A DNA stretch of 64,000 nucleotides from an uncultured Poribacteria bacterium (GTDB taxonomy: Bacteria; Poribacteria; WGA-4E; PCPOR2b): NCBI GenBank assembly GCA_958296125.1, contig OY282444.1:4063623-4127622 (forward strand), given 5' to 3'. Positions 5,902-57,517 of this stretch are shown here, in pieces; the first letter of the stretch is position 1; the number at the start of each line of letters is the position of its first letter. Both the position numbers and the translations under genes were made by a program. The notes beneath the pieces are model-generated. The model ran no database searches and was not told the origin of the DNA. It saw only the letters and a program-made list of their open reading frames with translations.

Positions 5902-8900
5902 GTGATAGATCTTCTGCGGCAGTCAAACACCTATCAATTGCTTGTTGAAACCCTGACCGCTCAGTTTTCAGGGTCGAAGTGTGCCCTGACCTCGTCAAAT
6001 CAGCGAATAGATCTTCCCAAACCTTGGTTGCGCGGTCTGCATGGCGCATCTACGGCTTATTTGCTCAGTGCATTGGCAGCCGATTTTGCCGACCAATCTT
6101 TTCTCGTCGTCCTTCCGACGCAGCCTGAAGCTGAGAAAATCATCCAAGATTTACCCGCCTATCACTTTGAGGGGGCCCATCTCTTTCCGCAATGGCAGAA
6201 TTTCCTTTACGACGGTATTTCCCCAACAAAAAATGTCGTTGCAGAACGACTCATCTGTTTGTATCAACTGTTGAAGGGAGACCGCACGTTTGTTGTCACA
6301 TCAATCCATGCGTTGATGCACAAAATTCTGCCCCAATCGGTTGTAGAATCCGCCTTCCTGACCCTCCGCATCGGTGATGAGATTGCTCCCGACGAAGTGG
6401 TTGAACAGCTTCTGTGCAACGGTTATCAGCGCGTAGATCTCGTAGAAGTCAAGGGAGAGTTAGCCCGTCGTGGCGACATTCTGGACGTTTACCCGTTGAC
6501 CACTGACGCGCCCATCCGAATTGAGTTCTTTGGCGATGAGATCGACGCTATTCGATCTTTCGATCCCGCCTCACAGCGCTCTGTTTCCGATGGGGGTGAT
6601 GATGAACCGGGGGCAATTACACTGTGTCCGGTTCGAGAAATCATCTTGTCCCCTGAAACTCTCGATCTGTGGAAGACCCGCGCAGAGATATTGATTCAAA
6701 AAAACGAGTCGCCCAAGTACCGAAACGCGATCAACGAGATTACACACCGTCTCGAAACGGAAACGGATCCGGCAGGGTTGGAAGCCTTGCTTCCGATGTT
6801 ATACGAAGATACCAGTACCCTCACGAATTATCTATCCCCGCAGACTGTCGTTCTCTTGATTGAGCCGACCTGGATGGCGCGTGAGGGGACTCAACTCATC
6901 GAAAATACGAAGGATCTTTATGAACGAAAACTAGCATTTGATCAGTTTATGGTGTCACCGGATGAGACGTTTGTGCCGTTTGAATCAGTAATCTCCGCTT
7001 TGCAGACGCATCCCCTTGTTCGCACGTCGTTGACTCCACCTGCACTCAATACGGAGGAACAGGTTGAGGAAATTGCTTTCGGTATGCGTCCGCTCGGTCT
7101 TCCACGTAGTAATTATCGGCTGGTCATGGATCAGATCAAGGAGTGGACTGATGAAGGCTATTTCGTTAATTTCCTCTGTGATAATCTAAAGAGCGCAGAT
7201 CGGCTAAACAACATCTTGGCAGATCGAGACTTACCTGCAGCCCAGACGGCGGTGAAAATCGGCAGTATCAGCGAGGGGTTTATCAGTGAAACCCTTAAGT
7301 TCATCACGCTGTCTGAAGATGAGTTGTTTGGACGCGAACACCGTCGCCACCGCAAGACCTCCTTCAAAGAGGGGACCCCTATCCTGAGTTTGATTGATCT
7401 CAAGGAAGGGGATTATGTGGTGCATGTCTCACACGGAATCGGTCTCTACGCGGGGATTCGCCGCCTTGATATCGATGGAAAGCCACAGGACTTTCTCGTG
7501 CTAGACTATGCGGACGGGGGTAGGCTGTATGTTCCGACCTATCAAATCGATCTCGTGCAGAAGTATATTGGCGGGCAAGAGGACAGAAAGTTACGGCTGG
7601 ATAAACTCGGTGGAACATCATGGGAGCGGGTCAAAGCCAAAGTAAAAGCCTCCATAGAGCAGATGGCGGGGGAATTACTGGAACTGTATGCTATTCGTGA
7701 ATCCCGCGAGGGCCATGCCTTTCCAGCGGATACCCCTTGGCAGAAAGAGTTTGATGTGCTATTTCCTTATGAAGAGACCCCAGATCAGCAGAAGGCGATT
7801 GAGGAGGTCAAGCGGGATATGGAACGCCTTCGGCCCATGGATCGGCTAATCTGCGGAGACGTTGGATACGGAAAAACAGAGGTTGCGCTCCGTGCGGCGT
7901 TCAAATCAGTGATGGCAGGCAAACAGGTTGCTCTTCTCGCTCCAACCACAATTCTCACGCTGCAACACTTTAATACGTTCCAGCAGCGGTTCGCCCCTTT
8001 TCCCGTTCAGGTCGAAATGCTGAATCGCTTCCGAACGGATAAAGAAGCGAAGGGGGTTGTGGAGGGGTTGGCAAATGGCACGGTTGATATCGTTATCGGC
8101 ACCCACGCTTTGCTTTCAAAAAACATTAAATTCCGCGAGCTCGGTTTGCTTGTGGTTGATGAGGAACATCGTTTCGGGGTGAAGCACAAAGAGAAGGTTA
8201 AACAGCTGAAGCAGACGGTTGATGTATTAACCTTGACAGCGACACCGATTCCGCGTACACTCCACATGTCCCTTGTAGGCATCCGTGACTTCAGCATAAT
8301 CAATACGCCTCCGGAAAATCGGCTGCCGATTGAGACCTATGTGATTGAGTATAATCCCGATGTGGTTCGAGATGCGATTTTGCGCGAGATGGAACGGGGT
8401 GGACAGATCTTCTTTGTTCACAACCGTGTCCAGAGTATCGCGAGCATCGCGGCTGCAATCCAGGACCTTGTGCCGCTCGCTCGAGTCTGCATGGCACACG
8501 GGCAAATGCCTGAACGTCAACTAGAAAAGGTGATGATGGAGTTCATCAACCACAAATACGATGTTTTGGTGTGCACCATGATTATCGAGTCCGGTGTGGA
8601 TATCCCAACTGTCAACACCATTCTGATTAATCGGGCAGACGCGTTTGGGTTAGCCCAACTTTACCAGTTACGCGGGCGAGTCGGTCGCGATCAGTATCAG
8701 GCTTACGGTTACCTTTTCTACCCACAAGGACGGGCGATTACAGAGGGTGCTCAAAAACGTTTGCGGGTCATCGAAGAGTTCACCGACCTGGGCTCCGGGT
8801 TCAAGATTGCCCTCCGCGACCTTGAGATTCGGGGCACCGGCAACATTCTCGGTTCAGAGCAGCACGGCCATATCACCGCTGTGGGTTACGACATGTACTG

Positions 8901-9390
8901 CAAACTCCTTGAGGAAGCGGTACAAAAACTGAAGGGTGAGGAGGTTGAAGAAACGGTCGAAACGCGGATCAACCTTCCTATTGAAGCCTATTTGCCCGAT
9001 GAATATGTCCCGGACAGCCGACAGAAGGTCGCGCTTTACAAAAAGATTGCTGCCTTGGAAACGGAGGTCGATCGGCAGAAACTTGAGGAGGAGATGGTTG
9101 ACCGATATGGAAAAATCCCCAAGCCAGTTGAGATGCTCCTCGATATTGCCGACTTAAAACAGCTCAGTCAACAGTTGGGGGTTGATGGAATCGCCGCAGG
9201 CTTGGAAAGCATCAAGGTCACATTTGACGCAGCAAAAACAAGCCTTGACCCTCGTAAGCTGATCCGACTTATCGAGCAGGATCGGCGGGTCTCGATAACA
9301 CCCCCTGCGCGTATGACGATCCGTATGAAGGGCTTGGAGGGGAAAACGCTCTTGCTTGTGCTCAAGGGTATCCTTGGGAAATTAATGTGA
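5902..9390 (+). CDS. mfd: Transcription-repair coupling factor Mfd
   Basis: 1162 residues, close to the family's usual 1150. Mfd removes stalled RNA polymerase from DNA lesions and recruits UvrA. Visible parts in order: N-terminal UvrB-like region, the RNA polymerase interaction domain (EGDYVVHVSHGIGLYAGI ... YADGGRLYVP), then the RecG-like translocase with Walker A GDVGYGKTE, the DEEH box (VVDEEHRFGVKHKE), TLTATPIPRTL, and motif VI QLRGRVGRDQYQAYGY. The C-terminal TRCF domain (IEAYLPDEYVPDSRQKVALY) is present. The start is GTG with AGAAAG before it. It is followed a few genes later by uvrA, its partner in transcription-coupled repair. Confidence 0.97.
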   Translation: MIDLLRQSNTYQLLVETLTAQFSGSKCALTSSNQRIDLPKPWLRGLHGASTAYLLSALAADFADQSFLVVLPTQPEAEKIIQDLPAYHFEGAHLFPQWQNFLYDGISPTKNVVAERLICLYQLLKGDRTFVVTSIHALMHKILPQSVVESAFLTLRIGDEIAPDEVVEQLLCNGYQRVDLVEVKGELARRGDILDVYPLTTDAPIRIEFFGDEIDAIRSFDPASQRSVSDGGDDEPGAITLCPVREIILSPETLDLWKTRAEILIQKNESPKYRNAINEITHRLETETDPAGLEALLPMLYEDTSTLTNYLSPQTVVLLIEPTWMAREGTQLIENTKDLYERKLAFDQFMVSPDETFVPFESVISALQTHPLVRTSLTPPALNTEEQVEEIAFGMRPLGLPRSNYRLVMDQIKEWTDEGYFVNFLCDNLKSADRLNNILADRDLPAAQTAVKIGSISEGFISETLKFITLSEDELFGREHRRHRKTSFKEGTPILSLIDLKEGDYVVHVSHGIGLYAGIRRLDIDGKPQDFLVLDYADGGRLYVPTYQIDLVQKYIGGQEDRKLRLDKLGGTSWERVKAKVKASIEQMAGELLELYAIRESREGHAFPADTPWQKEFDVLFPYEETPDQQKAIEEVKRDMERLRPMDRLICGDVGYGKTEVALRAAFKSVMAGKQVALLAPTTILTLQHFNTFQQRFAPFPVQVEMLNRFRTDKEAKGVVEGLANGTVDIVIGTHALLSKNIKFRELGLLVVDEEHRFGVKHKEKVKQLKQTVDVLTLTATPIPRTLHMSLVGIRDFSIINTPPENRLPIETYVIEYNPDVVRDAILREMERGGQIFFVHNRVQSIASIAAAIQDLVPLARVCMAHGQMPERQLEKVMMEFINHKYDVLVCTMIIESGVDIPTVNTILINRADAFGLAQLYQLRGRVGRDQYQAYGYLFYPQGRAITEGAQKRLRVIEEFTDLGSGFKIALRDLEIRGTGNILGSEQHGHITAVGYDMYCKLLEEAVQKLKGEEVEETVETRINLPIEAYLPDEYVPDSRQKVALYKKIAALETEVDRQKLEEEMVDRYGKIPKPVEMLLDIADLKQLSQQLGVDGIAAGLESIKVTFDAAKTSLDPRKLIRLIEQDRRVSITPPARMTIRMKGLEGKTLLLVLKGILGKLM

Positions 9391-9462
9391 GGCGTGAAAC
9401 GTGATGTGTATTGCCTCACAGTGTTTGTGGGGCATGCGTATTTTTTAAGCAATATGAGTATA

Positions 9463-9522: not shown

Positions 9523-10560
9523 ATGAAAAAAATAGTAATAATTTTCGTCGTTATTGCGGCGATCGGTTTGAGCAGTGAGCAAATTGTCAAGGCGCAAAAC
9601 GTCGCTGGACCGATGGATGAGAGCCAGATTATTGTGGCTCGATACGAATGGAACAGCACACACGAAATTTCGCTTGCAATGCTTAATGCGGAAATTGCAG
9701 CACTACCGGAACATAAACAGAAAGGCTATCAGTCCAAAGCTGGTAAGCTCATATTTCTGGAAGATTTCATCAGCCAACAGCTAAAACTCCTCGCGGCTGC
9801 TGATAAAGGATTCGACAAAAAAGAGGAGTTTCACAAAAAAGGGGACGATTATAAGCATCAGTTGATGGTCGAACTCTTGACCGAAATTGAAGTCGATGAA
9901 AAAATTGTCATCACTGAGGAAAAGCTGCAGCAGTATTACGAAGAAAATAAAGATGCCTATGTGGACAAGGAACAGGTGCGGGCAACTTGCATTACGGTAG
10001 CCGATAAAGAACTTGCACAGACAACGCTAGAGGCGATTCAGGCTGGCGAGGACATTTTTGATGCGGTGAAAGAACTTGCAGAAGAAGAGGTATTGATCGG
10101 CCCAGGTTCAAATCCGAGCGATCCTGGTGACACCGGCTTCTTTACACGAGATATTTCTGCCCGTGCACAGGCTTTCGTTGACACGGTCTTTGCGATGGAA
10201 GTCGGCGAAATGACTGAGGAAGTTTTTGAGCAGGAGGTCGAAGAGGACATCTATTATATGATTTTCCGAAAGGAAGAGCATCAGCCAGAACGTCAGCAGA
10301 CCTTTGAAGAGGTCAAGCCTCGACTTGAGTATCCCCTAAAACGCGAGATGAAGCGGACGCGTATCCTAGAATGGTTGGAAGTGCTTACTGCACAGAGTAA
10401 ACTGAAAACGTATCCAGACCTCCTTCCTCCACCCGTGATGCCAGAAGAGGAAGAAGATCCGGAAAATGAAACATCTGACCTGCCAGAGCCAGAGGAGGCA
10501 GTAGAAAGTGAATCCCTCGATGAGGGTGATGCCCCCGCCGATCCTGAAACAGAGCCTTAG
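9523..10560 (+). CDS. Exported parvulin-like (PpiC/SurA-type) protein, copy A
   Basis: 345 residues from the ATG at 9523, chosen because AAAGGAG precedes it and a signal peptide (MKKIVIIFVVIAAIG...VKAQ) begins there; an upstream GTG frame has no support. The middle follows the SurA/PpiC plan: a helical N-part, LQQYYEENKDAYVDKEQVR, then a parvulin-like domain (about residues 155-255) with GDTGFFTRD and MEVGEMTEEVF. The parvulin signature 'RHILV' reads RATCITV, so the conserved His is Cys. That suggests weak or no prolyl isomerase activity and a chaperone role. The tail is acidic low-complexity (DLPEPEEAVESESLDEGD). It is a tandem paralogue of the next gene and sits in the SurA/LptD cluster. 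Confidence 0.75.
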   Translation: MKKIVIIFVVIAAIGLSSEQIVKAQNVAGPMDESQIIVARYEWNSTHEISLAMLNAEIAALPEHKQKGYQSKAGKLIFLEDFISQQLKLLAAADKGFDKKEEFHKKGDDYKHQLMVELLTEIEVDEKIVITEEKLQQYYEENKDAYVDKEQVRATCITVADKELAQTTLEAIQAGEDIFDAVKELAEEEVLIGPGSNPSDPGDTGFFTRDISARAQAFVDTVFAMEVGEMTEEVFEQEVEEDIYYMIFRKEEHQPERQQTFEEVKPRLEYPLKREMKRTRILEWLEVLTAQSKLKTYPDLLPPPVMPEEEEDPENETSDLPEPEEAVESESLDEGDAPADPETEP

Positions 10561-10582
10561 AGCCTGAAGCTGTGAATTAAGG
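10477..10582 (+). repeat. Tail repeat, copy 1 (106 bp)
   Basis: The end of parvulin copy A plus its stop and about 20 bases downstream (TAGAGCCTGAAGCTGTGAATTAAGG region) is nearly identical to 11602-11725. Copy 1 lacks an in-frame 18-base DEGESP unit found in copy 2. Confidence 0.85.
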
Positions 10583-10692
10583 CAGTAGTGGAGCACAAAA
10601 TAGGGTGGATTCGTCGTGTTTAGAAATTGGCTGATAGAGGGCTGTCAAAGTTGAACAACTGTATATCACGCAAAATTTAAGGAGGTATAACT

Positions 10693-11703
10693 GTGAGATT
10701 ATTGGGAATTATCGGTTTTATCTTAATCGGTGCCGTTGCTGTTAGCATTTCTTTGAACGGTTGTGGGGGAAAAGCCGGGGCTGAAGGCACTGTGATTGCT
10801 GAGTTTGAATGGAATGGGAAACACCACATCACGCTTGAAGAGATGCTACAGGAGATAAGTGAACTCCCTACCTACAAACAACACCAGTACCAAGAAGCAG
10901 AAGGCGGGTTTGAGGAATATATGAACCTGATGGCGGAGAGCCGTCTCATACTTTGCCTTGCCAAAGATCGAAAGCTTGATGAGGATGCTGGGATTCTGAA
11001 AAAAGTGCAAGACTATTACCATGAATTGCTCGTTGACAGCATTACAGAAGTCGAAGTGGATCAGAAACTTAAACTGACCGAAGAAGACTACCTGCTTTAT
11101 TATGAAGAGAATAAGGGTGACTATGTTGATCCAGAACAGGTGCGACTCACCTGCATAACCCTTACAAGCGAGGATCGAGCGAAGGAGGTCTTCCAACGAA
11201 TCAAGGATGGGGAAGATATCGTTACCGTTGCCGCAGAACTATCTGCAGATGGGGAGTTAGTCGGACCCGGCACAAATACTGAAAGCCCCGGTGACACCGA
11301 ATTTTTCGATCGCCAGACCTATTCACGACGTGCGAAAGCCTTCAGCGATATGGCATTTGAACTGGAAGTCGGTCAAATGAACGAGGACATTCTTCATATC
11401 GAACTGGATGAGGATAACTATTACCTAATCTTCCGCAAGGAGGAATCCCAGCCGGAGCGCCAACAAACGCTTGACGAAAAAAGTGTAAGACGCAATGTGG
11501 AAAGACAGGTAGAGAATCAGAAGCGTGAAGGACTTATGACCGATTGGCTCATCCGGCTCCATGAACAGGCACAGGTCAAGACCTTTGCAGATCGAATCCC
11601 CGACCTGCCAGAGCCAGAGGAGGCAGTAGAAAGTGAACCGTTAGATGAGGGTGAATCCCCCGATGAGGGTGATGCCCCCGCCGATCCTGAAATAGAGCCT
11701 TAG
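10693..11703 (+). CDS. Parvulin-like lipoprotein, copy B
   Basis: 336 residues starting at GTG 10693, directly after a strong AAGGAGGT. The signal segment ends in a lipobox-like SLNGC (Cys24), so this copy is predicted to be lipidated, unlike copy A. Layout matches copy A: EEDYLLYYEENKGDYVDPEQ, a parvulin-like domain with GDTEFFDRQ and LEVGQMNEDIL, and an acidic tail (LPEPEEAVESEPLDEGESP). Again the parvulin His position is Cys (RLTCITL). The ortholog class is uncertain; PrsA/PpiC-like chaperones that hold unfolded envelope proteins are the closest described functions. It lies 34 bases upstream of the surA-like gene and is likely cotranscribed with it. Confidence 0.75.
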   Translation: MRLLGIIGFILIGAVAVSISLNGCGGKAGAEGTVIAEFEWNGKHHITLEEMLQEISELPTYKQHQYQEAEGGFEEYMNLMAESRLILCLAKDRKLDEDAGILKKVQDYYHELLVDSITEVEVDQKLKLTEEDYLLYYEENKGDYVDPEQVRLTCITLTSEDRAKEVFQRIKDGEDIVTVAAELSADGELVGPGTNTESPGDTEFFDRQTYSRRAKAFSDMAFELEVGQMNEDILHIELDEDNYYLIFRKEESQPERQQTLDEKSVRRNVERQVENQKREGLMTDWLIRLHEQAQVKTFADRIPDLPEPEEAVESEPLDEGESPDEGDAPADPEIEP

Positions 11704-11725
11704 AGCCTGAAGCCGTGAATTAAGG
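11602..11725 (+). repeat. Tail repeat, copy 2 (124 bp)
   Basis: Second copy of the tail found at 10477-10582. Here the repeated downstream piece continues into AAGGAGGT, which serves as ribosome site of the surA-like gene; in copy 1 the same place reads AAGGCAGT. This marks a tandem duplication of the gene with its downstream leader. Confidence 0.85.
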
Positions 11726-11737
11726 AGGTATGCCCAA

Positions 11738-13030
11738 ATGAAAACATTTCGTTTCTTTACCCTGATCCTATTCACTATTCATTTTGGAATCAATCCTGCT
11801 GCTGCGCGACGGTTCGATCAAATTATCGCTTATGTCAACGGGGACGTGATCACTAGATGGGAGCTCAACAGCGTTGTGAATCAAAAAGCGTTGGAACTCC
11901 AGCAAATTTACCGGTTCAGTGAGCGTGAAGCGCTGCAAAAGGCGGAGCAGGAACGGGCTGCGCTCCTGGACCAGTTGATACGCCAGATGCTTCTCGTCGA
12001 AACGGCATTAACGCTAAAAATTGAAATCACAGAGGTTGAAGTGGAGCAATATCTGCAAAGCTTCAAGGACCAGTACAAGATCGAGACTGAAGCAGAGTTT
12101 GCTCAAGCGTTAAAGAAAGAAGGATATACCCTGATGTCTTTCCGTGAACAAGCCAAACGCAATCTGATGGCGGAACGACTCGTAATGCAACGTATCCTCC
12201 CTAGACTCCAAATCCGGGACTCGGACGTGCAGCAGTTTTTTGAAGAAAACCGCTCGCAGTTGCCAACTAAAACGGACAGTGTTTACCTTAGGCATATCTT
12301 TGTTGCTTTCAAGCCGAGCGAGGCGGATCGCAAGCTAGCCCTTGACGAGATTGACACAATTCTTCAGGAATTAAAGGCTGGGAAAGATTTTGAGAAACTC
12401 GCGCAACGGTATGCTAACGATGAGCATAGAAAGGCGGGAATTGGGGCATTAAACGAACTGCCGATTGCGGAGGTGGACAATCTATCTGCTACCTTCCGTG
12501 ATGCGCTCGCGGGGCTCAATACCGGCGCAACTAGTGAGCCGATCGAAGGCAATGATGGGTTTTATCTTTTCAAAGTTGAGCGCAAGGATGATCAGGGCAT
12601 AGCGTTTCGGCATTTGGTTGTCGGTCTGAAGCCGAGCGAAGCGGCGATGGAAGCTGCTTATGAACGCGCAGATAGTCTCCTGCAGCGGTTAAACCAGGGT
12701 GAGGATTTCAACACGCTTGCCCGACAATACTCCGACGACTCACAGACGAAAGCCAATAGTGGGGCTCTCGGGATTCGTTCACTCAGCGAGCTAAATCCCG
12801 AAACTCGGAAAATTATCGAAGGGCTTGCTATCGGAGCGCATAGCACGCCGGTCAAAACGACGTATGGCATGCATATTTTCAAGATTGATAGCCGTGCTGC
12901 CCCTGGGTTGAGCGATGCGGAAAAAGACCAGATCCGAACGATGCTACGTCAGCAAAAATTTCAAGAGGAATGGCAAATTTACACGGATTTGCTCAAGGAA
13001 AATTCCTTCATAAAAATTAAATTGGACTAA
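11738..13030 (+). CDS. surA: SurA-like periplasmic chaperone with two parvulin domains
   Basis: 430 residues, the size of E. coli SurA. Signal peptide, then the SurA N-domain (FDQIIAYVNGDVITRWEL, ALLDQLIRQMLLVE, the 'VNxxvIt..el' pattern), then two parvulin domains: about residues 180-280 (VYLRHIFVAF ... GALNELP) and 290-390 (AFRHLVVGLKPSEA ... GALGIRSLSEL ... TTYGMHIFKI). Both keep the His of the RHI/RHL strand, unlike the two preceding paralogues. Known role of SurA: escort of unfolded outer-membrane proteins, LptD being a classic client. A strong AAGGAGGT precedes the ATG. It lies directly upstream of an LptD gene, so chaperone and client are adjacent. Confidence 0.9.
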   Translation: MKTFRFFTLILFTIHFGINPAAARRFDQIIAYVNGDVITRWELNSVVNQKALELQQIYRFSEREALQKAEQERAALLDQLIRQMLLVETALTLKIEITEVEVEQYLQSFKDQYKIETEAEFAQALKKEGYTLMSFREQAKRNLMAERLVMQRILPRLQIRDSDVQQFFEENRSQLPTKTDSVYLRHIFVAFKPSEADRKLALDEIDTILQELKAGKDFEKLAQRYANDEHRKAGIGALNELPIAEVDNLSATFRDALAGLNTGATSEPIEGNDGFYLFKVERKDDQGIAFRHLVVGLKPSEAAMEAAYERADSLLQRLNQGEDFNTLARQYSDDSQTKANSGALGIRSLSELNPETRKIIEGLAIGAHSTPVKTTYGMHIFKIDSRAAPGLSDAEKDQIRTMLRQQKFQEEWQIYTDLLKENSFIKIKLD

Positions 13031-13152
13031 GTTGTGCTTTCCTATCAGAGTCACTTGACCGACAGTGAGGAGGGAAGTAGAGGGATCCGATTCTCGGACA
13101 GACTCTACTGCTTTTAAATCGTTGATTTTACGTGTAGCAGAGGAAAGGTAGG

Positions 13153-16100
13153 ATGGAAAGGAGGGAAAAACACAAATGGCAGAAAATAGCAGGCAGTGGA
13201 AGACAATCAATTTTCCAGTTTCCCAACCCTCTTTGTCCCCAGTTGCTTAATCCCTTTTTGGGATTCACGCTTCAGGTCCTATCACTCGCGATTCTCACGC
13301 TTTACTTAATTTCGCCCGCGGGCGAATTAGCCGCCCAAACCGACCCGCCGCCGGCTACCGATGCGGATGTTTCCGACGGACAGCCTGACGCGTCATCAGA
13401 AAGCTCTTCAGCGACAGATTCACCTTCACCAGAAGAATCTACGGGCGAGGAGTCCCCTACAGATGATGATACGTCTGTCATACCGCCTGACGAGACATTA
13501 GAAACCCTACCAGCGACAGATTCGCCTTCACCAGAAGCCCCTACCCAAGCTAGTCGAAAGCTCAATCCGGAGAATATGTCACCCGAAGAGGGGGACCTTC
13601 TTGCAAAGGGCGATGATCTAACCTTTCATAATAACCTGATCCAGATTCACGGCAACGGACTGATTAAATACGACGACGTTGTGCTCTATGCTGACCATAT
13701 CTGGGCGAATTTCGACGAAAATGTGATGCGGGCAGCAGGAAATGTGCACCTGCTCGTCGGAAACGAAGAAACTTTTGCAAATGAACTCATTTACAACCTT
13801 GAAACGAAAAAAGGGATTATTCGCGAAGGGTTCACTTTCAGTGACCCATGGTATTACCGCGGCACTGAAATCTTCAAGGTTGAAGATGATGAATCCTACA
13901 TCCGTGGTGGTGCTTTGACGACATGCTCTCTCAAGCATCCCCATTTCTACTTCAGCGCATCGCAGATTATCGTCAAGATAGGCAAAGAGTTGATTGCCAA
14001 GAATATTGTGCTGAGGGTCGGGGGGATTCCGCTCTTCTATTTTCCTGCCTACCGTCGTGATCTTCGCCAAGAAGATAAAATTGCCAAGATAATTGTCAAA
14101 GTTGGAACAGATAGCTATCAAGGGGTTTTCCTCAGCGTTATCTTGCCGCTTGCGCGTCGTTATCGATATGACGGTGCCCTGCTGTTTGATCACTCTGGCC
14201 GCCGGGGAAGTGGGGGTGGCTTTGAGGGAAAATATCGTGTAAACGATGTCAAGTTTCAAGAAATTATTGTTCCCTTACCTCCCAATGCAACGCCGAGTGA
14301 GCGGACAAAACTAGAAGAGAAAGCGCAGGAGTTAGCGGACAGGTTGGAGGGTGAGTATGACCGGTATAAGCTGCGCCAACTGTTTCTGGAATATAAGATT
14401 TCTGAAGAAGACATCGCCGCTGCCCGCGAAAAGGTGGAGAACATCTATGCTCAACTACAAGAGGCGGACGCAGATTTCGCAAAGATTGCACAAAATCAAT
14501 CGACCCATCAGGAAACATCCTATCAGGGTGGCGACATGGGGTTTTTGGTGCGCGGAGAGCGGGACGAGGAGGATGAACTTCGACTGGATCCAATCCTCGA
14601 AGAGGTGGTTTTTCAACTGGAACCGGGGGAAATTACACCGATCCTCAGGACAGAATCTGGCTTCCATATTTTAACGATTGAGCGTGTGCTTGATGTATAT
14701 GGCGAACGAGAGCTCCAGATCCGCCGAATAGATGTAGCGATAGAACCAAGCGAAGACACCCGTAACACAATTCAGGGGACAGCAAGGGAAATCCAGGAGC
14801 GTGCAACTGCGGGAGAAGCGCTCGAACAATTAGTTGGGGAATATGAAGATGTTGAAATTGCTGAAGCCAATGAAGGGGCAGGGTTTCTGTTAAATGAAAT
14901 GGATCGGCGGTGGAAACACCCCGTAAGCCGACTAGCGGCACCCGGGGAAGTAACTTGGCCCGTGAATACCGAGCGAGGCGTTTACATCTTTGAGTTAATC
15001 GAAAAGGAGGCAACCCCGACCTTTGAAGAAATTGCACGTCGATTTGAAGCGGAGTGGGAGACGATTGAAGCGGAATTAGGGGAAGCTGCAACGACAGGAG
15101 ATGGTGAAGGGGAACAACCGGAAGAAGGAACGGAGGGGCGGGGTGATAAGGAAATAAACGGGCATGAGGAAAGAAGCGAAGGGGAAGGCGATATAAGGAC
15201 ACAGGAAGATAATACGCAAGCTGCTTTGAATCCCGATAAAATCGGGGCCGATGAGATGACAAATCCCCCGGAAGAAGGAGCGGAACCGGAGAAGTTGCAG
15301 GTCTACCAACAATACGATTATCGGGGACGGTGGGAGACACCGAACACCATCTACTCACAAGCGCAGCGGCTCTACAGCGGTGAGCACACCGGGATAATCA
15401 AGACTCGTAAAGGGTATCGTTTAATTAAGGTCGATAAAAGGCGCACTTATAGGGGAGACCTTTACTTCTATACCAACGATGAATTTTCTTACGATCGTCG
15501 AAAGCCGTTCAAAACTGGGAGACGATGGAATCTCCGGTGGGGGCACCGGCACGCTTTCTATACCCCATGGGACAGCCGAGCGAAAGGACGAAGACCTGTG
15601 AGTTTTGTGGGACGTGTGGCGTGGCGAGCAAAGGAATTTGAAGAAGAGGGATTTGGAATCAATGAATCTGCGGTTAATTCTTTTGGTATGTTCACATGGG
15701 GAACCGCTTTTAATTCGTTGAATTATGCCGATAGAGATGAAGACGGAAACTTAAGATTTTCTTACAAGACAATTGGGGAGTTCTTGGGGAGGTTACAGGT
15801 TAATCATACCTTAGACTTCACGGGTGAAGGGACCACAAACTTGCAAAAGCTGCCCACGCTCGATCTTTCACTTAGACGCATGCAATTAAATCGGTTGCCT
15901 GTTTTCAAAACTATCAATTCGGGGCTAACCAAAGTCGCGGATCAGTTACACACCGATCTTCCAATCCTTTCAATGTTCGCTTTTCCAACGCTTGAAAACA
16001 TTAGCTTTGATCTGGAGACGAATCTTGGTAATTTTTTCCGTGAACGGTATCGAGAGGAAGAGGATGTCTACTTGCAAGCGGTGGATATCGGTTTCGATCT

Positions 16101-17112
16101 TCGTAAGCAGTCAGTGCTGCAAATAATCCCGAATCGAGAGTTGCGCGTTGACATGGATTTCGACACGAACCTTATCTGGCATGACAAGGACCGGGAAGGA
16201 AATCGAAACATTTTCCGAAGTATATACAGCACGCGGTTAGCTGCCAGCAATCTACTGTTTCGGATTTATGACATCAGTTTTATTCCGGGGGCGCGTCGCA
16301 TGCGCCACCAAATCAACTCAAGGGTATCATTTGATTACGCGCCACCTGTCGACAGAGAAGATGCTCCCGAACTCTATCCTTTTGGTCCAAGTGTCTACTT
16401 CTTTGAAAGGAAAACCCTCGCTTACAACTTAGATACCAGCATTGAAGTTAAGACCCGCGGCAGCAGATCTGCGCTCCGCGTGCTTCATTTTAATACACGA
16501 ATATCGGCGGATTTCACGAGATTTGAGGCGTTGGGGGAACGTCGATATGTACCGATTGAAAGCAGACTGACAATAGTTCCACTGGCGAGTCGAAACCTGA
16601 ATATCAGGTTCACATCGACACATGATCCGAATGAATCGCCCCTCGATGGAAAACGACTCAAACAGATTGGTTTCCGATCCAACATCAGTTACCGCCGTGA
16701 CAAATGGAATATAACAGTCGGAAACGCCTTTACCAAAAGGACGCAACGCGCCTCTCGAAGCCTCACGGGCAGTTTCCGATTTCGTCCAAGTCGATTACTT
16801 GAATTGAATCTCAGTGTTAATTATGACTGGATCGAGAAACAGTTCTACTCGCAGAGTGTAACGCTGCGGCGCAACTTGCATAATTGGAATATGACGATTA
16901 GATGGCACCGCATCGGGATTAAGCGGGAACCTCCCTTCGATAATGTGCGACAAGATTTCACTTTTCAGATTAACCTGATTGCAGAGCCCGCTGCCTCAGT
17001 TGGGGTTGGCTATGATGCCACAACGGATACATGGGGATTCCGTACCCTGCCTGCCGGCGTGCCTTACGATGCCTTCGGGGTTGGAAACTCACTTGGACGA
17101 TCTTACTTCTAA
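13153..17112 (+). CDS. lptD: LptD-like outer-membrane LPS assembly protein with embedded parvulin-like domains
   Basis: 1319 residues against about 780 for E. coli LptD. A long signal region and a Ser/Pro/Glu-rich linker (ATDSPSPE twice) come first. Residues about 153-370 are the OstA/LptD periplasmic beta-domain, with the hallmark GGALTTCSLKHPHFYF (Cys258) and KNIVLRVGGIPLFYFPAYRR. Then come inserts: about 404-512 parvulin-like (DFAKIAQNQS, YQGGDMGFLVRGE, LEPGEITPILRTESGFHI); about 521-617 a second, degenerate one; an acidic linker to about 715; and a third partial unit (YSGEHTGIIKTRKGYRLIKV). From about 770 a beta-barrel follows and ends in Phe, as a BAM signal should. The conserved parvulin His is replaced (RQLFL, RRIDV). 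The frame is unbroken. Family role: inserting lipopolysaccharide into the outer leaflet. Confidence 0.85.
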   Translation: MERREKHKWQKIAGSGRQSIFQFPNPLCPQLLNPFLGFTLQVLSLAILTLYLISPAGELAAQTDPPPATDADVSDGQPDASSESSSATDSPSPEESTGEESPTDDDTSVIPPDETLETLPATDSPSPEAPTQASRKLNPENMSPEEGDLLAKGDDLTFHNNLIQIHGNGLIKYDDVVLYADHIWANFDENVMRAAGNVHLLVGNEETFANELIYNLETKKGIIREGFTFSDPWYYRGTEIFKVEDDESYIRGGALTTCSLKHPHFYFSASQIIVKIGKELIAKNIVLRVGGIPLFYFPAYRRDLRQEDKIAKIIVKVGTDSYQGVFLSVILPLARRYRYDGALLFDHSGRRGSGGGFEGKYRVNDVKFQEIIVPLPPNATPSERTKLEEKAQELADRLEGEYDRYKLRQLFLEYKISEEDIAAAREKVENIYAQLQEADADFAKIAQNQSTHQETSYQGGDMGFLVRGERDEEDELRLDPILEEVVFQLEPGEITPILRTESGFHILTIERVLDVYGERELQIRRIDVAIEPSEDTRNTIQGTAREIQERATAGEALEQLVGEYEDVEIAEANEGAGFLLNEMDRRWKHPVSRLAAPGEVTWPVNTERGVYIFELIEKEATPTFEEIARRFEAEWETIEAELGEAATTGDGEGEQPEEGTEGRGDKEINGHEERSEGEGDIRTQEDNTQAALNPDKIGADEMTNPPEEGAEPEKLQVYQQYDYRGRWETPNTIYSQAQRLYSGEHTGIIKTRKGYRLIKVDKRRTYRGDLYFYTNDEFSYDRRKPFKTGRRWNLRWGHRHAFYTPWDSRAKGRRPVSFVGRVAWRAKEFEEEGFGINESAVNSFGMFTWGTAFNSLNYADRDEDGNLRFSYKTIGEFLGRLQVNHTLDFTGEGTTNLQKLPTLDLSLRRMQLNRLPVFKTINSGLTKVADQLHTDLPILSMFAFPTLENISFDLETNLGNFFRERYREEEDVYLQAVDIGFDLRKQSVLQIIPNRELRVDMDFDTNLIWHDKDREGNRNIFRSIYSTRLAASNLLFRIYDISFIPGARRMRHQINSRVSFDYAPPVDREDAPELYPFGPSVYFFERKTLAYNLDTSIEVKTRGSRSALRVLHFNTRISADFTRFEALGERRYVPIESRLTIVPLASRNLNIRFTSTHDPNESPLDGKRLKQIGFRSNISYRRDKWNITVGNAFTKRTQRASRSLTGSFRFRPSRLLELNLSVNYDWIEKQFYSQSVTLRRNLHNWNMTIRWHRIGIKREPPFDNVRQDFTFQINLIAEPAASVGVGYDATTDTWGFRTLPAGVPYDAFGVGNSLGRSYF

Positions 17113-17323
17113 CACCAAATCTACAGTGCGAAAAGCAACTAAATCTTCTGCTTAGTGGCGGCCCTTCGCGTTGATTGAGGGCAGGTCTGTTTTTCTCACG
17201 TAGAAATATGGTAAAATGCGACTCATTGATGGTTCAATTTGAGAATATATTAGGATACAGAATCTCATTAAATGAATGGAATCGCTGGTCATTACGGAAA
17301 GGCCTTCAGCCAAAGGAAAATTT

Positions 17324-20300
17324 ATGCCGGAAGAATTCATCGACATCCGCGGCGCACGCGAACATAATCTCAGAAACATCGATCTCAAGCTCCCCAAAGA
17401 CAAGCTCATCGTCTTCACCGGTGTCAGCGGTTCTGGGAAATCATCGCTGGCATTCGATACCGTCTACGCTGAAGGACAACGCCGCTACATCGAATCCCTC
17501 TCCGCTTATGCTCGTCAGTTCCTTGGACAGTTGGAAAAACCCGACGTTGATTTCATCGGGGGTCTCTCCCCAGCCATCTCAATTGATCAGAAATCGGGCG
17601 GGAACAATCCTCGCTCAACGGTCGCAACGATCACAGAAATCTATGACTACCTGCGCGTCCTGTTTGCGCGTGTGGGCACACCGCACTGCCTCAAGTGCGG
17701 TGCCCCGGTGGGTGCCCAAACGGCAACGGCGATCATCAACCAGATTGTAAACTTACCGCAGCGGACTCGTATCTTAATCCTTGCACCAATTGTCAGTGGG
17801 CGTCGCGGCGAGTATCGGGACGATCTTGAGGACGCGCTCAAGACAGGGTTTGTCCGTGCCCGAATTGATGGACAAATCTATGACCTACCGGCTGAAATTC
17901 AGCTTGATCGGAATCAGCGGCATCACATTGAAATCGTCGTGGATCGGATCATTATCAAACCCGATATCCGCAGCCGCGTCGCGGAAGCAGTTGAAACCGC
18001 GCTACGTATGGGGGAGGGCCGCCTAATTGTGAACATCGTCGGAGGGGAACCGGAGGCGGGCGACCTCTTGTTCGGGGTGGACTACACCTGCGTGCACTGC
18101 AACATCAGCTATGAACCCCCCGCCCCACGAAATTTCTCCTTCAACAGTCCTGCGGGGATGTGCCCAACCTGTAAGGGACTCGGAACGCTAACGAAGATGG
18201 ACCCCGATCTGGTTGTCCCCGATCCAACTCTATCGATTTGGAACGGAGCGATTGTCTTTTGGGGGCGGCTTGACACGCTACAGACACGACACTACGCCGA
18301 GAGTTTGGCAGCGCACTTCGGCTTCAGTCTCGATACACCGTGGGAACAGTTGAACGATGTGCATCAGCAAGCTATCCTTTATGGCACTGGCAAAGAGGAG
18401 ATTCCCTTCGTCTATCGCTCCCATCGTAATCGCCGCTATAAGTACCGGGCCGCGTTTGAAGGCGTGATTCCGCCCGGAGAACGAAAGTATTTCCAAGCAA
18501 CCTCGGAGCTTGTGAAGCGTTACTACGGAAAATACATGGTTTCTGGTCCCTGTCCAGATTGTAACGGGACACGACTCAAGCCAGAGGTCAAGGCTGTGAC
18601 AATCGACGGAAAATCCATCCTTGATGTCGTTGAAATGGCGGTTAGGGATTGTTTTACTTTCTTTGAAAAACTCCAACTGCCAGCGCGTGAGGCGTTCATT
18701 GCGACCGATTTGCTGAAAGAGATTCAGGGCCGCCTCTGGTTCTTAATGAATGTTGGGCTGCACTACCTCACCTTGGATCGCACCGCACCGACGCTTTCCG
18801 GCGGCGAATCGCAACGGATTCGGTTAGCCAGCCAAATCGGGGCGGGCTTGCGAGGGGTGGTCTACGTCCTTGACGAGCCCAGTATTGGTTTGCACCCGCG
18901 TGATAACCAGCACCTCCTCACGACGCTCAAACATCTCCGGGATCAGGGCAACACCGTAATTGTTGTCGAACATGACGAAGATACAATGTGGGCGGGGGAT
19001 ATGATTGTTGATTTCGGGCCCGGACCGGGAATCAAGGGGGGTGAGATTGCGGCAATCGGTGCGCCGCAAGAGATTGCTGAAGGTTCAACCTCTCTGACAG
19101 CGCAATATCTCCGTGGCGAACAACAAATCGACATACCCACCGAACGCCGTTCAATTGGAAATCAATGGATCGAGATCTGTGGGGCACGTCATAACAATCT
19201 TAAAGACGTTGATGTGCGAATTCCGATCGGGATTTTCACCTCCGTGACGGGTGTCAGCGGCTCTGGCAAAAGTTCGCTTATCAATGATATTCTATACGAG
19301 GCACTTGCCCGCGATCTGATGAAGGCACACGCTCAGCCGGGGGAGTATGATCGAATACGAGCAGGCACTACAGAGGGCGATCCTCCGCCCGATCATACGC
19401 AAGCCACATTTTCAGCTCCAATTGACGAAGTCCTCGATAAAGTCATTGATATTGATCAGTCGCCGATTGGGCGGACACCGCGATCGAATCCTGCCACGTA
19501 CACCAAAGTGTTTGATCAGATCCGTGCCCTTTACGCCGAGATGTCAGAGTCCAAAGTGCGCGGTTACAAACCGGGACGTTTCAGCTTCAATGTCAAAGGC
19601 GGTCGATGCGAAGCCTGTGAAGGCAATGGCTCAAAGCGGATCGAAATGCACTTTATTGCCGATGTTTGGGTGAAGTGTAATATTTGTCAGGGAAAACGAT
19701 ATGATGACGAAACGCTACAGGTCGAATACAGGGGCGCGCATATCTCCGATGTGCTCAACATGGACGTGCAAGAGGCTTTAGAGCACTTTGCGAACGTGCC
19801 GAAAATTGCAAAGATTCTACAAACCCTGCATGATGTCGGTCTGGACTACATCAAGCTTGGTCAGTCGGCACCAACCCTCTCCGGCGGCGAGGCACAACGG
19901 ATTAAGTTGGCGCGGGAGCTGGCTAAACGTAGTACGGGCAAAACCCTCTATATTCTTGACGAGCCGACGACTGGGTTGCACTTCGACGATGTGAAGAAAC
20001 TCCTCAAAGTGTTGCACCAACTCGTTGATGTGGGCAATACCGTTGTCGTCATCGAGCACAACTTGGAAGTAGTAAAGACAGCGGACTATCTTATTGACCT
20101 CGGGCCCGAAGGGGGTGAAGAGGGGGGCTATGTCGTTGCGACGGGGACACCGGAGGAAGTGGCAGCGGTTGAGGAGTCGTATACGGGGATGGCATTGAAG
20201 CTGGCATTGGAGCCGAGAAGGATGGAAGCATCTTCGATTAACTATACACAATATGCGATACATAATGCACCGCACGTCCTACAAGAATCAACAACCTCTT

Positions 20301-22834
20301 ATGAATTAGCTGGCACGAATGAGCAGAAATACATCTCCGTGCATGGGGCACATGAGCACAATCTGAAAAACATCAATGTAGACATCCCCCATCGGAAGTT
20401 CACCACATTCACCGGCGTGAGTGGTTCAGGAAAATCGTCGCTGGCGTTGGACACAATCTATGCAGAAGGGCAGCGGCGCTACATCGAATCCCTTTCAGCG
20501 TATGCGCGGCAATTTTTAGGGCAATTAGAGAAGCCGAAGGTCGAGAAGATTGAGGGGCTCTCGCCGGCAATAGCGATCGAACAGAAAGCACCAAGCAAGA
20601 ATCCGCGGTCTACGGTCGGGACAGTCACAGAAATTTACGACTACCTGCGGGTGCTTTATGCACGAGTCGGAATCGCCTACTGCTCGCAGTGCGGGTCGGA
20701 AATCAGCGTCCAATCCGTGCAGCAGATTGTTGACAAGATCATCGCATTGCCGAGTGGAACACAGCTTTATGTCCTGTCTCCGCTAGTGCTGCGCCCTAAT
20801 GAGGATTATCCCGATGCCTTCCGCCGTCTACAGCGTGAGGGCTATGCTCGCATCAAGATTAACGGGGAGGTTTACCCAATCGATCAAGCCCCGAATATTA
20901 GAAAGAGCATCCGGCACGATGTCAAAATTGTCGTCGATCGCCTCACCCTTGAACCTGATGAACGTGGACGTTTAACCGAAGCTGTTGAAACCTCAACGCA
21001 GCAGAGCGGTGGGATTGTGGCGGTGGGAGTCATGACTGAAGGAAAACAGGCGAGCGAGGGAGCAGGGATCACGCATCATGTTTTCAGCGAGCACTTCGCT
21101 TGCATCCCGTGTGGTTTGAGTTTTCCCGAACTGACACCGCGTCACTTCTCATTCAACAGTTCTATCGGTCAGTGTCCGGCGTGTGAAGGCATTGGGACAA
21201 TCGGTCATCGGTTATACACTTGTCAGGAGTGCAAAGGCACGCGAATTCAGCCATTGGCAAGAGGCGTAACGTTGGGTCGGACAACCATCGCTGAGGTGAC
21301 AGCGATGCCGATTGGAAGGGCTGCTCATTTTTTCGACCGCCTCGATCTGCCAGCATATCAGATGGAGATTGGCGGAGAATTGCTCAAGGAGATCCGACAA
21401 CGACTTCGATTCCTTGTTGATATTGGACTACACTACCTGACGCTAGACCGGCCGGCACCAAGTCTCTCAGGGGGGGAGATGCAGCGCATCCGTCTGGCAA
21501 GCCAACTTGGCAGCGGCCTCACAGGGGTGACATACATCCTTGATGAACCGAGTATCGGATTGCACCAGCGGGATCAGGAGCGACTCTTGAACGCATTGAA
21601 AGGGCTTCGCGATCTTGGCAACAGTGTCTTGGTTGTCGAACACGATTTGGAAACGATGCTGGCATCAGATTACATTCTTGATTTTGGTCCCCGCGCTGGG
21701 AAGTTCGGCGGTGAGATTGTCGTCGCCGGTTCTCCAACTGAAATCCAGCAGAGCGAAAATTCGCTGACGGGCGGTTATCTCACAGGGACGCTCAAGATTG
21801 AGGTCCCTCCGCAAAGGCGCCAAGGCAAAGGGGAGTGGCTTGAGATGGTGGGCATCCGAACCAATAACTTGCAGAATATCGATGTTGAAATCCCGCTGGG
21901 GACGCTGACATGCGTGACAGGTGTTTCCGGATCAGGAAAGAGTTCGCTGATTGAGGAGACGCTGTATCCTGTGCTCGTCTCTAATCTGAATCGAACGCGG
22001 ATGCGGGCGGGGAAGTATCGAATGATTCGTGGGTTGGAATATCTTGACAAAGTAATCAACATCGATCAACAGCCAATCGGCGACACCCCCCGATCGAATC
22101 CGGCCACCTACACTGACCTATTCACCAAGATTCGTTATCTCTTTGCCGATCTGCCGGATGCTAAGGTCCACGGTTTCGATTCCCGTCGATTCAGTTTTAA
22201 CCAGAAGACGGGACAGTGCGAAACATGTCGTGGGCATGGCTTCAATAAGGTTGAGATGCACTTTCTCGCGGATGTGTGGGTCAAGTGTGAGACCTGCAGC
22301 GGCACCGGCTATAACCACGAAACGTTGCAGATCCGCTATAAGGGCAAAAGCATCGCCGATATTCTGGGGATGACAGTGCAGGAAGCGCTAGCCCATTTCC
22401 ACAGCGTGCCACCTATCCATAGACCCTTGCAGATGTTATACGATGTTGGTCTGGATTACATTGAACTCGGTCAGGTGGCGACAACGCTCTCTGGTGGTGA
22501 ATCTCAACGTGTCAAGCTGGCGCGTGAGCTCTCGAAGCGGAGCACTGGCAAAACCATCTACATCATGGATGAACCGACAACGGGCCTACATTTTGATGAT
22601 GTGCAGAAGTTACTGATGGTGCTCAACCGCTTGGTGGACAAGGGCAACACGATTGTCATCATTGAACACAACATGGACGTGATCAAATCCGCCGATTGGA
22701 TTATTGACTTGGGCCCCGAGGGCGGGGCGGAAGGTGGGGAGGTTGTCGCTATGGGGATGCCAGAGGAGGTGGTGGCTGTGGAGAAATCGGATACCGGACG
22801 GTTTTTGCGAAAGGCACTCACGCTGCCAGTCTGA
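17324..22834 (+). CDS. uvrA: Double-length UvrA (two UvrA copies in one polypeptide)
   Basis: 1836 residues from the ATG at 17324, preceded by AAAGGA; an ATG at 17276 is the alternative. UvrA is the damage-sensing ABC ATPase of nucleotide excision repair. Two complete UvrA-like halves meet near residue 1000. All four nucleotide sites look intact: Walker A (GVSGSGKSS) near 33, 643, 1031 and 1533, and signatures (LSGGExQR) near 491, 852, 1381 and 1722, each with a DEPSIGLH or DEPTTGLH Walker B. Zinc motifs are present ([32 protein letters not shown]). The second half lacks about 108 residues between CPACEGIG and CQECKGTR that the first half has. Chlamydia also has a double UvrA; how the halves share work is unknown. 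Confidence 0.95.
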
Positions 22835-35156: not shown

Positions 35157-36701
35157 ATGAAAAGACTACCGATCCTGTTTGTTGTAATGTTGGTGATGTG
35201 TCAATCAACTATAACCTACACCGAAGAAGTCAAACTGATCGCCGGTGATGCGGCGGAGGATGACAATTTCAGCACTTCTGTCTCTATCAACGGAAACTAC
35301 GCCATTGTCGGTGCTCCGGGTAACGATGATGATGGAGACCGATCTGGTTCGGCCTATATTTTCGCGCTTGATGGAGGGATTTGGGCCCAGCAGGCGAAGC
35401 TCACTGCCAAAGATGGGGCGGGAGGAGACTTCTTTGGTCGTTCCGTCTCCATCAACGGCGACTGGGCGATCGTTAGTTCTCATCATGATGATGTGTGGTC
35501 TGGTTCAGCCTATATCTACCAGCGCGACGGAAAAAATTGGAAAGAGCAGGGCAAAGTCAATGCCAAGGATGGGGAAGCCAATGACAGTTTCGGCTTTTCT
35601 GTCGACATCAGCGGAGACACCATCATTGCCGGAGTCCCCCAAGACGATGATAAAGGAGCTGACTCCGGCTCAGTGTTTGTCTTCGTACGCGTTGGGGACA
35701 AATGGGTAGAGCAACAAAAATTTACACCCCGCGACGCGGAGGCAGGGGACATCTTTGGTTCTTCCGTCTCCATCGACGGTGACTACGCTATCATCGGGTC
35801 TCTTTGGGACGATGATAAAGGAAGTCGGTCCGGTTCGGCGTATATCTACAGGCGCAGCAAGAGGGTTTGGAAAGAGGAGGCGAAGCTCGTTGCTAGCGAC
35901 GGAGCAAGGGGCTCCGAGTTTGGCTTTTCCGTTCACATCAGTGGAAACTATGCTATCGTCGGGGCGAATTCGCACAATAGCGGTGCTGGTGCGGCGTATG
36001 TCTTTGTGCGCAACGGAGAAACTTGGACCGAAGAGGCGAAACTTACAGCTAGTGACGGGAAAGCAAAGGACAACTTCGGAATTTCTGTCTCCATCAATGC
36101 AACCACCGGAAACGTTGCTGCCCTCGTGGGATCTTACCGGCACGATGGTAAAGGAAACAATTCCGGGGCAGTCTATTCTTTTTTACGTAAGGGTAAAGCT
36201 TGGATTGAAAGGGCGAGGGTGACTGCTAGCGACGTAGAGGCAGGGGATAGATTCGGCGGGTCCGTCTCCATCAGTGCCAATCATGCCCTCACTGGTTCTA
36301 GCTTGAAGAATGGCGGTACGGGTTCAGCCTATATCTATAATGTCTTCGACGATTTGGCACTTTCAGTCGAACCCTTCGGAAAGCAGGTTGTTTTGTGGGG
36401 GCAAATACGCAAAAATGCCCTGTACCAAAACTTCCCAAATCCGTTCAATCCCGATACGTGGATCCCTTACCAGTTGGCAGAAGATGCCTGGGTCACTTTG
36501 ACCATTTCTGATTTGACAGGTTACGTTGTCCGCACATTCAAAGTCGGACATCAACCTGCTGCTATGTATACATCAAAAGAGAGAGCAATTTACTGGGATG
36601 GTCGTAACGACATAGGTGAACCTGTATCCAGCGGTATCTATTTTTATCACCTGCAAGCAGGCAACTTTGCCACAACGAAGAAGATGATAATCATCAAATA
36701 G
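35157..36701 (+). CDS. Secreted FG-GAP propeller protein with FlgD/T9SS-like C-terminal domain
   Basis: 514 residues. Signal peptide (MKRLPILFVVMLVMCQS), then seven FG-GAP-like repeats of about 50 residues, each with 'D.FG.SVSI.G.YAIVG...DD..G..SGSAYIY', which should fold as a seven-bladed propeller. Near residue 395 comes SVEPFGKQVVLWGQI, then ALYQNFPNPFNPDTWIPYQL and a FlgD-like Ig domain ending in GIYFYHLQAGNFATTKKMII. This C-terminal type is used as a sorting or anchoring domain in some secreted proteins. The same WGxIK-type motif ends the three LamG proteins of this window. A cell-surface or secreted adhesion role is inferred. Confidence 0.85.
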   Translation: MKRLPILFVVMLVMCQSTITYTEEVKLIAGDAAEDDNFSTSVSINGNYAIVGAPGNDDDGDRSGSAYIFALDGGIWAQQAKLTAKDGAGGDFFGRSVSINGDWAIVSSHHDDVWSGSAYIYQRDGKNWKEQGKVNAKDGEANDSFGFSVDISGDTIIAGVPQDDDKGADSGSVFVFVRVGDKWVEQQKFTPRDAEAGDIFGSSVSIDGDYAIIGSLWDDDKGSRSGSAYIYRRSKRVWKEEAKLVASDGARGSEFGFSVHISGNYAIVGANSHNSGAGAAYVFVRNGETWTEEAKLTASDGKAKDNFGISVSINATTGNVAALVGSYRHDGKGNNSGAVYSFLRKGKAWIERARVTASDVEAGDRFGGSVSISANHALTGSSLKNGGTGSAYIYNVFDDLALSVEPFGKQVVLWGQIRKNALYQNFPNPFNPDTWIPYQLAEDAWVTLTISDLTGYVVRTFKVGHQPAAMYTSKERAIYWDGRNDIGEPVSSGIYFYHLQAGNFATTKKMIIIK

Positions 36702-54798: not shown

Positions 54799-54833
54799 GG
54801 TATCGTTAATCTCTTTCGTCTCTGTAGATGAAT

Positions 54834-54854
54834 GGGCGGGTTTAAAACCCGCCC
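54834..54854. repeat. GC-rich hairpin between ppdK and the R-M gene
   Basis: GGGCGGGTTT-A-AAACCCGCCC, a perfect ten-base stem. It lies 27 bases after the ppdK stop on that strand. No T-tract follows, so it may be a REP-like repeat or an mRNA 3'-end stabiliser rather than an intrinsic terminator. Confidence 0.5.
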
Positions 54855-54880
54855 TTATACAGTGAATTGTCCCAACCATC

Positions 54881-57517
<2,637 letters not shown>

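Follow-up and report, generated by a model that had tools for sequence, protein, structure and literature searches.

Parvulin domains nested within the predicted barrel of Poribacterial LptD

LptD, the outer-membrane pore through which lipopolysaccharide reaches the cell surface, is essential in many Gram-negative bacteria; its assembly is difficult, and it is also a drug target. The structures from Escherichia coli, Shigella, Klebsiella and Neisseria (9kn3, 4q35, 5iv9, 7omm) all combine a beta-taco domain with a barrel of 26 strands. In E. coli the turn between strands 4 and 5 is short, there is no parvulin domain and the cysteines follow a four-Cys disulfide scheme. The E. coli gene adjoins surA, and the parvulin domains P1 and P2 of SurA are known from structures (1m5y, 2pv1). 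According to the accessible portion of one report (PMC11366764), the core of E. coli SurA is able to complement by itself, and what the peptidyl-prolyl isomerase (PPIase) domains do is described as elusive. Here we describe an lptD gene (13153..17112, plus strand) from a 64 kb stretch, below called the window, of the 5.16 Mb single-contig genome of a Candidatus Poribacteria bacterium. Its 1319-residue product has the taco and barrel of the known LptDs, but differs from them in a cassette of parvulin domains within the barrel. Taking sequence, structure prediction and comparative genomics together, we regard this cassette-in-barrel architecture as hardly in doubt.

The predicted fold indicates that the gene product is a divergent but genuine LptD, as the initial annotation had it. 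The call stands despite the absence of a Pfam PF04453 match in the window genome, since the best matches of the fold in the PDB are LptD structures and a homologue from a deep-branching relative (L081) scores 35.9 bits with the Pfam model LptD_2 (PF19838), above the cut-off of 22.5, and has four Rotamase stretches in the same open reading frame (ORF). Behind the signal and a linker, the AlphaFold2 model (residues 141-1319, 53 sequences; mean predicted local distance difference test score, pLDDT, 75.2; predicted template modelling score, pTM, 0.60) contains a beta-taco and 26 barrel strands, followed by two short low-confidence strands at the C-terminus. Foldseek ranked the LptD structure 4q35 as the first match (E 5.1e-21), and structural alignment to LptD structures gave a VIA Z of up to 19.9 over 632 residues. 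The OstA-like beta-taco (13573..14061, plus strand; residues 141-303) is matched by LptA structures, and barrel strands 1-4 (14092..14238, plus strand; residues 314-362) and 5-26 (15454..16977, plus strand) follow from the model and the structure matches. At the sequence level the NCBIfam LptD models match weakly (E 4e-4 and 2e-3), and a profile comparison with E. coli LptD gave a short match (E 5e-5) at the conserved 'TTC..GGIPLFYFP' region that is common to the known and the Poribacterial proteins. The pathway is present as well: as in the known LptD systems, the same genome encodes LpxC (E 3.4e-89), two LptF/G proteins (1.7e-82 and 6.5e-74) and LptE (4.3e-8), in addition to an LptA-like gene.

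In the model the 405-residue cassette splits the barrel between strands 4 and 5, with four strands before it (model residues 174-180, 184-195, 199-208 and 212-234) and 22 after it, the first of which spans residues 614-638. In the alignments with E. coli LptD one range begins with E. coli residue 230 paired to model residue 174 (4rhb), another with E. coli residue 285 paired to model residue 627 (9p1u). The insert therefore replaces the SQAGAG turn, at about E. coli residues 280-285, after strand 4. As far as the accessible parts of the respective papers go, E. coli strand 4 includes W272, N274 and F276 and the LptD4213 deletion covers strand 7 plus extracellular loop 4 (PMC6887485), while P231 lies in strand 1 and P246 in strand 2 (PMC12644819). 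We checked the E. coli residue numbering against the sequence for W272, N274, F276 and the LptD4213 landmarks. Because of these strand landmarks the even-to-odd turns are taken to be periplasmic, the 4-5 turn therefore among them, and by strand parity and the published E. coli topology the cassette very probably lies on the periplasmic side. A surface-exposed cassette, with three strands before the insert, was ruled out, as the E. coli numbering, the published strand assignment and the model all give four.

The two deepest branches of the phylum (L080 and L081) have a second, independent parvulin insertion at the turn between strands 10 and 11, which has the same parity as the 4-5 turn. In the window this predicted periplasmic turn (15886..15999, plus strand) consists of a helix only. 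The second-site parvulin (residues 749-878 of the L081 LptD; residues 248-378 of the L080 ORF) has its C-terminal part first and its N-terminal part after that, like a circular permutation.

The initial annotation had described a parvulin-bearing LptD. The parvulins are indeed present, but they form three folds, one of them split in two, and they sit inside the barrel rather than being appended to it; their position in the barrel at a periplasmic turn had escaped that annotation. Sequence profiles recognised two full domains, D1 (14359..14688) and D2 (14704..15009), a lone C-terminal part, D3 (15007..15447, made up of 15007-15057 and 15301-15447), and a weak N-terminal part before D1, D0 (14239..14358), all on the plus strand. 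Judged from the profiles and a separate model of the insert, D0, into which strand 4 continues, would be the first strand and helix of an outer, split parvulin, and D3 the rest of it, flowing into barrel strand 5. D3 also holds an acidic, Gly-rich loop that is predicted to be disordered (15070..15300, plus strand; 24 D/E and 6 K/R in 77 residues); the outgroup sequences in the alignment, at class and at phylum level, do not have it. In agreement with a split domain, the joined D0+D3 profile matched SurA P2 with an E of 1.4e-12, compared to 3.6e-10 for D3 alone, whereas the reversed order brought no gain and a barrel control gave 0.47. D0+D3 also outscored D3 alone against SurA P1, D1 and D2. 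The insert model has a pLDDT of about 90 except in the acidic loop. Several Pin1 chains match its residues 9/10/11-411, which comprise D0 and D3, over 99-101 residues at 2.6-3.3 A; SurA P1 matches residues 52-268 (99 residues, 2.2 A), and chains of PrsA and Pin1 match residues ~64-164 with their own first strand left out. The cassette combines Pfam matches above the cut-off (Rotamase, 101.8 bits, three stretches) with a parvulin fold (Z 10-16). On the simplest reading of the models, an outer parvulin extends barrel hairpin 4/5 without a break and is interrupted by two more, the first strands of which are apparently exchanged, as predicted from the alignment ranges.

The cassette domains share fold and sequence family with SurA P1 and P2, but unlike those they are nested, belong to the very barrel that is the substrate and have lost the first catalytic His. 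The pairing of D1 and D2 may have a precedent, because the tandem-parvulin PPIase 8hm4 superposes on them in order over 205 residues (205-206 residues and Z 15.6-16.9 for 8hm3/8hm4), perhaps with the same strand exchange; however, that protein, which we take to be from Bacteroides, is a free chaperone and not part of a barrel. The type Vf proteins of Helicobacter pylori likewise have a folded domain between N-terminal barrel strands, but there, according to the accessible part of the paper, in an extracellular loop (PMC9820271).

The insertion appears to be a property of the phylum. An LptD-level match was found in 81 of the 84 phylum genomes, the other three (G008, G074 and G077) giving weak matches only. 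All 70 distinct LptD ORFs (more than 1050 aa) matched a parvulin profile built from SurA and PpiC (E<0.01), 62 of them at least twice. The insert measures between 317 and 515 aa in these proteins, and there are invariant positions inside it.

The cysteines of these LptDs deserve a separate remark. In contrast to the four-Cys scheme of E. coli, most Poribacterial LptDs (53 of the 70) contain just one Cys from the beginning of the taco onwards. The window protein carries Cys258 (13924-13926) in its taco, in the place of E. coli Cys173; this residue is conserved in 63/70, mostly without a partner Cys. A disulfide between Cys258 and the invariant Cys of the two neighbouring single-parvulin proteins, ParvA and ParvB (see below), was considered and rejected as unsupported. 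Five out of five LptDs checked from family f7 have Ser at the Cys258 position, the fused ParvAB proteins keep a Cys in one half (L086, L089), and the deep relatives L079 and L081 have the LptD Cys, yet Glu at the parvulin position.

The catalytic positions were compared over deduplicated ORFs within set length limits, that is without fused ParvAB, short SurAs and fragments. We presume for the first and second catalytic His the same roles as in Pin1 and PpiC, the second, with its motif, corresponding to Pin1 H157. The initial annotation had correctly listed the residues at the first position in the window: Cys in ParvA and in ParvB, Gln and Arg in LptD and His twice in SurA. In the relatives Cys is found in 57/57 unfused ParvA and 59/61 ParvB sequences, and Gln in D1 (60/70) and Arg in D2 (61/70) dominate in LptD, where His occurs in none of the 70 D0 and D1 domains and in a single D2. 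SurA has His in P1 (55/64), but in P2 more often Tyr (41/64) than His (18/64). The claim that only SurA keeps an active-site-like His thus holds for the first position and fails for the second, where D1 of LptD has His in 61/70 sequences, that of the window included (D2 4/70, with Tyr in the window; D3 5/70), while the window SurA has Tyr in P1. Among all SurAs P1 has His in 17/64 and Tyr in 45/64, and P2 His in 52/64. An active PPIase would have both His residues, and the first is all but missing from the cassette domains; judged by its residues, the cassette should not work as an isomerase, and for SurA, too, isomerase activity cannot be taken for granted throughout the phylum.

In a tree of 70 parvulin domain sequences, D1, D2 and the second-site domain of LptD mix with P1 and P2 of Poribacterial SurA, whereas ParvA and ParvB form a separate clade (support 100). 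D2 joins Poribacterial SurA P1 (98) and D1 joins the SurA P1 of deep branches (89). That the cassette was copied from the neighbouring surA is a natural guess.

In the window lptD is the last of four consecutive plus-strand ORFs, parvA, parvB, surA and lptD (ends at 10560, 11703, 13030 and 17112), flanked by mfd (5902-9390) and uvrA (17276-22834). All four products have Pfam parvulin matches above the cut-off, in line with the initial annotation. The exported ParvA (9523..10560; Rotamase_2, 49.9 bits) has 345 aa from the ATG at 9523, or 388 aa from an upstream GTG at 9394. Its lipoprotein-like paralogue ParvB (10693..11703; Rotamase_2, 36.2 bits) has a Cys24 that is present in 61/61 sequences, 18 of which pass a strict lipobox pattern. 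The idea that ParvA is a lipoprotein in the relatives was dropped, since Cys15 is found in 48/57 sequences but is lipobox-like in just nine. Both proteins match NCBIfam models of the PrsA/PpiD type weakly and have a single Rotamase_2 domain above the Pfam cut-off. SurA (11738..13030) consists of SurA_N and the parvulins P1 (12275-12586) and P2 (12596-12895), with a Rotamase score of 130.2 bits over two stretches; it scores 111.5 bits with NF008038, below the equivalog cut-off of 394. Between mfd and parvA lies a terminator-like hairpin (9412..9434, plus strand), a weak candidate based on a consensus match only; the scanned region holds 23 such sites, versus 15.2 in shuffles.

The gene order is clearly conserved. 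We compared 70 named loci, all from Poribacteria and found via the window LptD, in a survey of the best 80 of 91 relatives. The full order DUF3108-mfd-parvA-parvB-surA-lptD is present in 50 of them, the remainder being mostly contig edges or gene fusions, and surA lies immediately upstream of lptD in 62. Of the eight loci without an adjoining surA, two have no LptD ORF that passes the filter, five begin less than 400 bases from a contig end, and in L163 of family f5 the 1.4 kb beside lptD hold no surA. The initial annotation had proposed a dedicated outer-membrane assembly locus and had named a lack of conserved gene order as refuting; the order is conserved phylum-wide with few exceptions, and this synteny supports the proposal. 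Family f7 has a modified arrangement, in which parvA and parvB are fused into one gene (648-739 aa) and the neighbouring SurA is short (225-235 aa; L086, L089, L090). In 3/3 of these SurAs tested SurA_N is present and Rotamase is missing, and the f7 LptD retains its parvulins.

Since catalysis was lost while the fold was retained, a role in binding suggests itself; the phylum-wide fusion of SurA-type parvulins into a periplasmic turn of LptD argues for binding over isomerisation. We tentatively favour the reading, drawn from sequence and models, that the cassette is an intramolecular chaperone or a module that docks LptD at the beta-barrel assembly machinery (BAM) during its assembly. It would emerge from the Sec channel once the beta-taco and the first four strands are through, ahead of strands 5-26, fold at once and stay tethered where SurA works, thereby keeping the growing hairpin region ordered. 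It could then bind, or stand in for, the SurA parvulin domains at BAM while the other 22 strands fold, and would have been retained as a peptide-binding surface and not as an isomerase. That the f7 SurA consists of little more than its N-domain would agree with LptD having taken over the parvulin role, without being proof of it. If LptD were a self-chaperoning barrel throughout the phylum, in which the nested parvulins from hairpin 4/5 substitute for those of SurA in BAM-dependent assembly, this would explain how one family could lose the parvulin domains from SurA; we consider this wider claim doubtful, though conceivable. Several observations speak against our reading as a whole. The full LptD model was predicted with moderate confidence, and the membrane side rests on parity and the published E. 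coli topology. In family f5 lptD does not adjoin surA (L163; lptD also lies away from surA in G059), and the f7 LptD has kept its cassette although the SurA there lacks parvulins; the cassette can thus not be a mere partner of the SurA parvulins, but it may stand in for them. The SurA/LptD group has poor support at its base in the domain tree (51-57), and single sequences are oddly placed, such as D1 of L081 with SurA P1 of L092 (66).

The main rival reading, which we consider less probable, gives the cassette a function in the completed translocon. Suspended beneath strands 4/5 and close to both the beta-taco hinge and the lateral gate, it would regulate the gate or dock LptA/LptE-type partners, in the manner of LptM and LptY, which bind the E. 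coli complex. The cassette is a permanent part of the protein across the phylum and is attached to strand 4, and LptM of E. coli touches strands 1-4 on their inner wall, by the lateral gate, as stated in the accessible part of the study (PMC12644819). Its structural relatives, however, are chaperone and PPIase domains and not Lpt partners. Less probable still is a tolerated insertion, where recombination between the neighbours surA and lptD in the ancestor of the phylum would have put parvulins into periplasmic turns, to be kept there as well-folding and harmless units. The adjoining donor-like gene, the mixing of the domains with SurA P1 and P2 and the lost catalytic residues would all agree with such a history, as would the additional parvulin that deep branches have in another turn, the variable acidic loop and the range of insert lengths; the presence of the cassette in every LptD of all families sampled, its invariant positions and its well predicted fold do not. 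The initial annotation had seen one active isomerase among chaperone-only derivatives, perhaps forming a relay in which ParvA, ParvB and SurA pass unfolded LptD along. The conserved order and close spacing of the genes and the weak resemblance of ParvA and ParvB to PrsA/PpiD-type proteins would suit a relay, but we find it quite unlikely: the catalytic residues of SurA are not conserved, f7 lacks SurA parvulins altogether, and parvA and parvB are fused in f7 and fused or single in two deep branches of the phylum.

In the literature searched, which was mainly open-access and covered by titles and abstract openings, we found no description of a parvulin-bearing LptD. Two Poribacteria papers do not mention lipopolysaccharide in the parts searched by term, nor, in the one paper searched for it, SurA, and literature searches for a surA-mfd operon of periplasmic PPIases and for BfUbb together with a PPIase yielded nothing. 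By this open-literature search and a survey of Poribacteria only, an LptD with SurA-type parvulins in periplasmic turns appears to be new. It places folding-helper domains in the LptD of an entire bacterial phylum from sponges and the sea, suggests that large nested domains can be accommodated in the periplasmic turns of a barrel and offers a ready-made test of the idea that the parvulin domains of SurA bind rather than isomerise.

Some features elsewhere in the window are worth recording. The uvrA gene next to lptD is of double length, with two UvrA units in one ORF of 1852 aa; it matches the long-UvrA model PRK00635 below the cut-off (1379 of 3054 bits) and adjoins lptD in the same-genus loci L070, L078 and L093. 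A double-unit UvrA layout is known from Chlamydiae. On the minus strand (51634-57517) a Type ISP restriction-modification ORF overlaps a PEP-utilising enzyme ORF by about 200 bases in a different frame, and one of the two start codons is probably wrong. Finally, positions 35157-36698 encode a protein with seven FG-GAP repeat stretches and a FlgD-like C-terminal domain.

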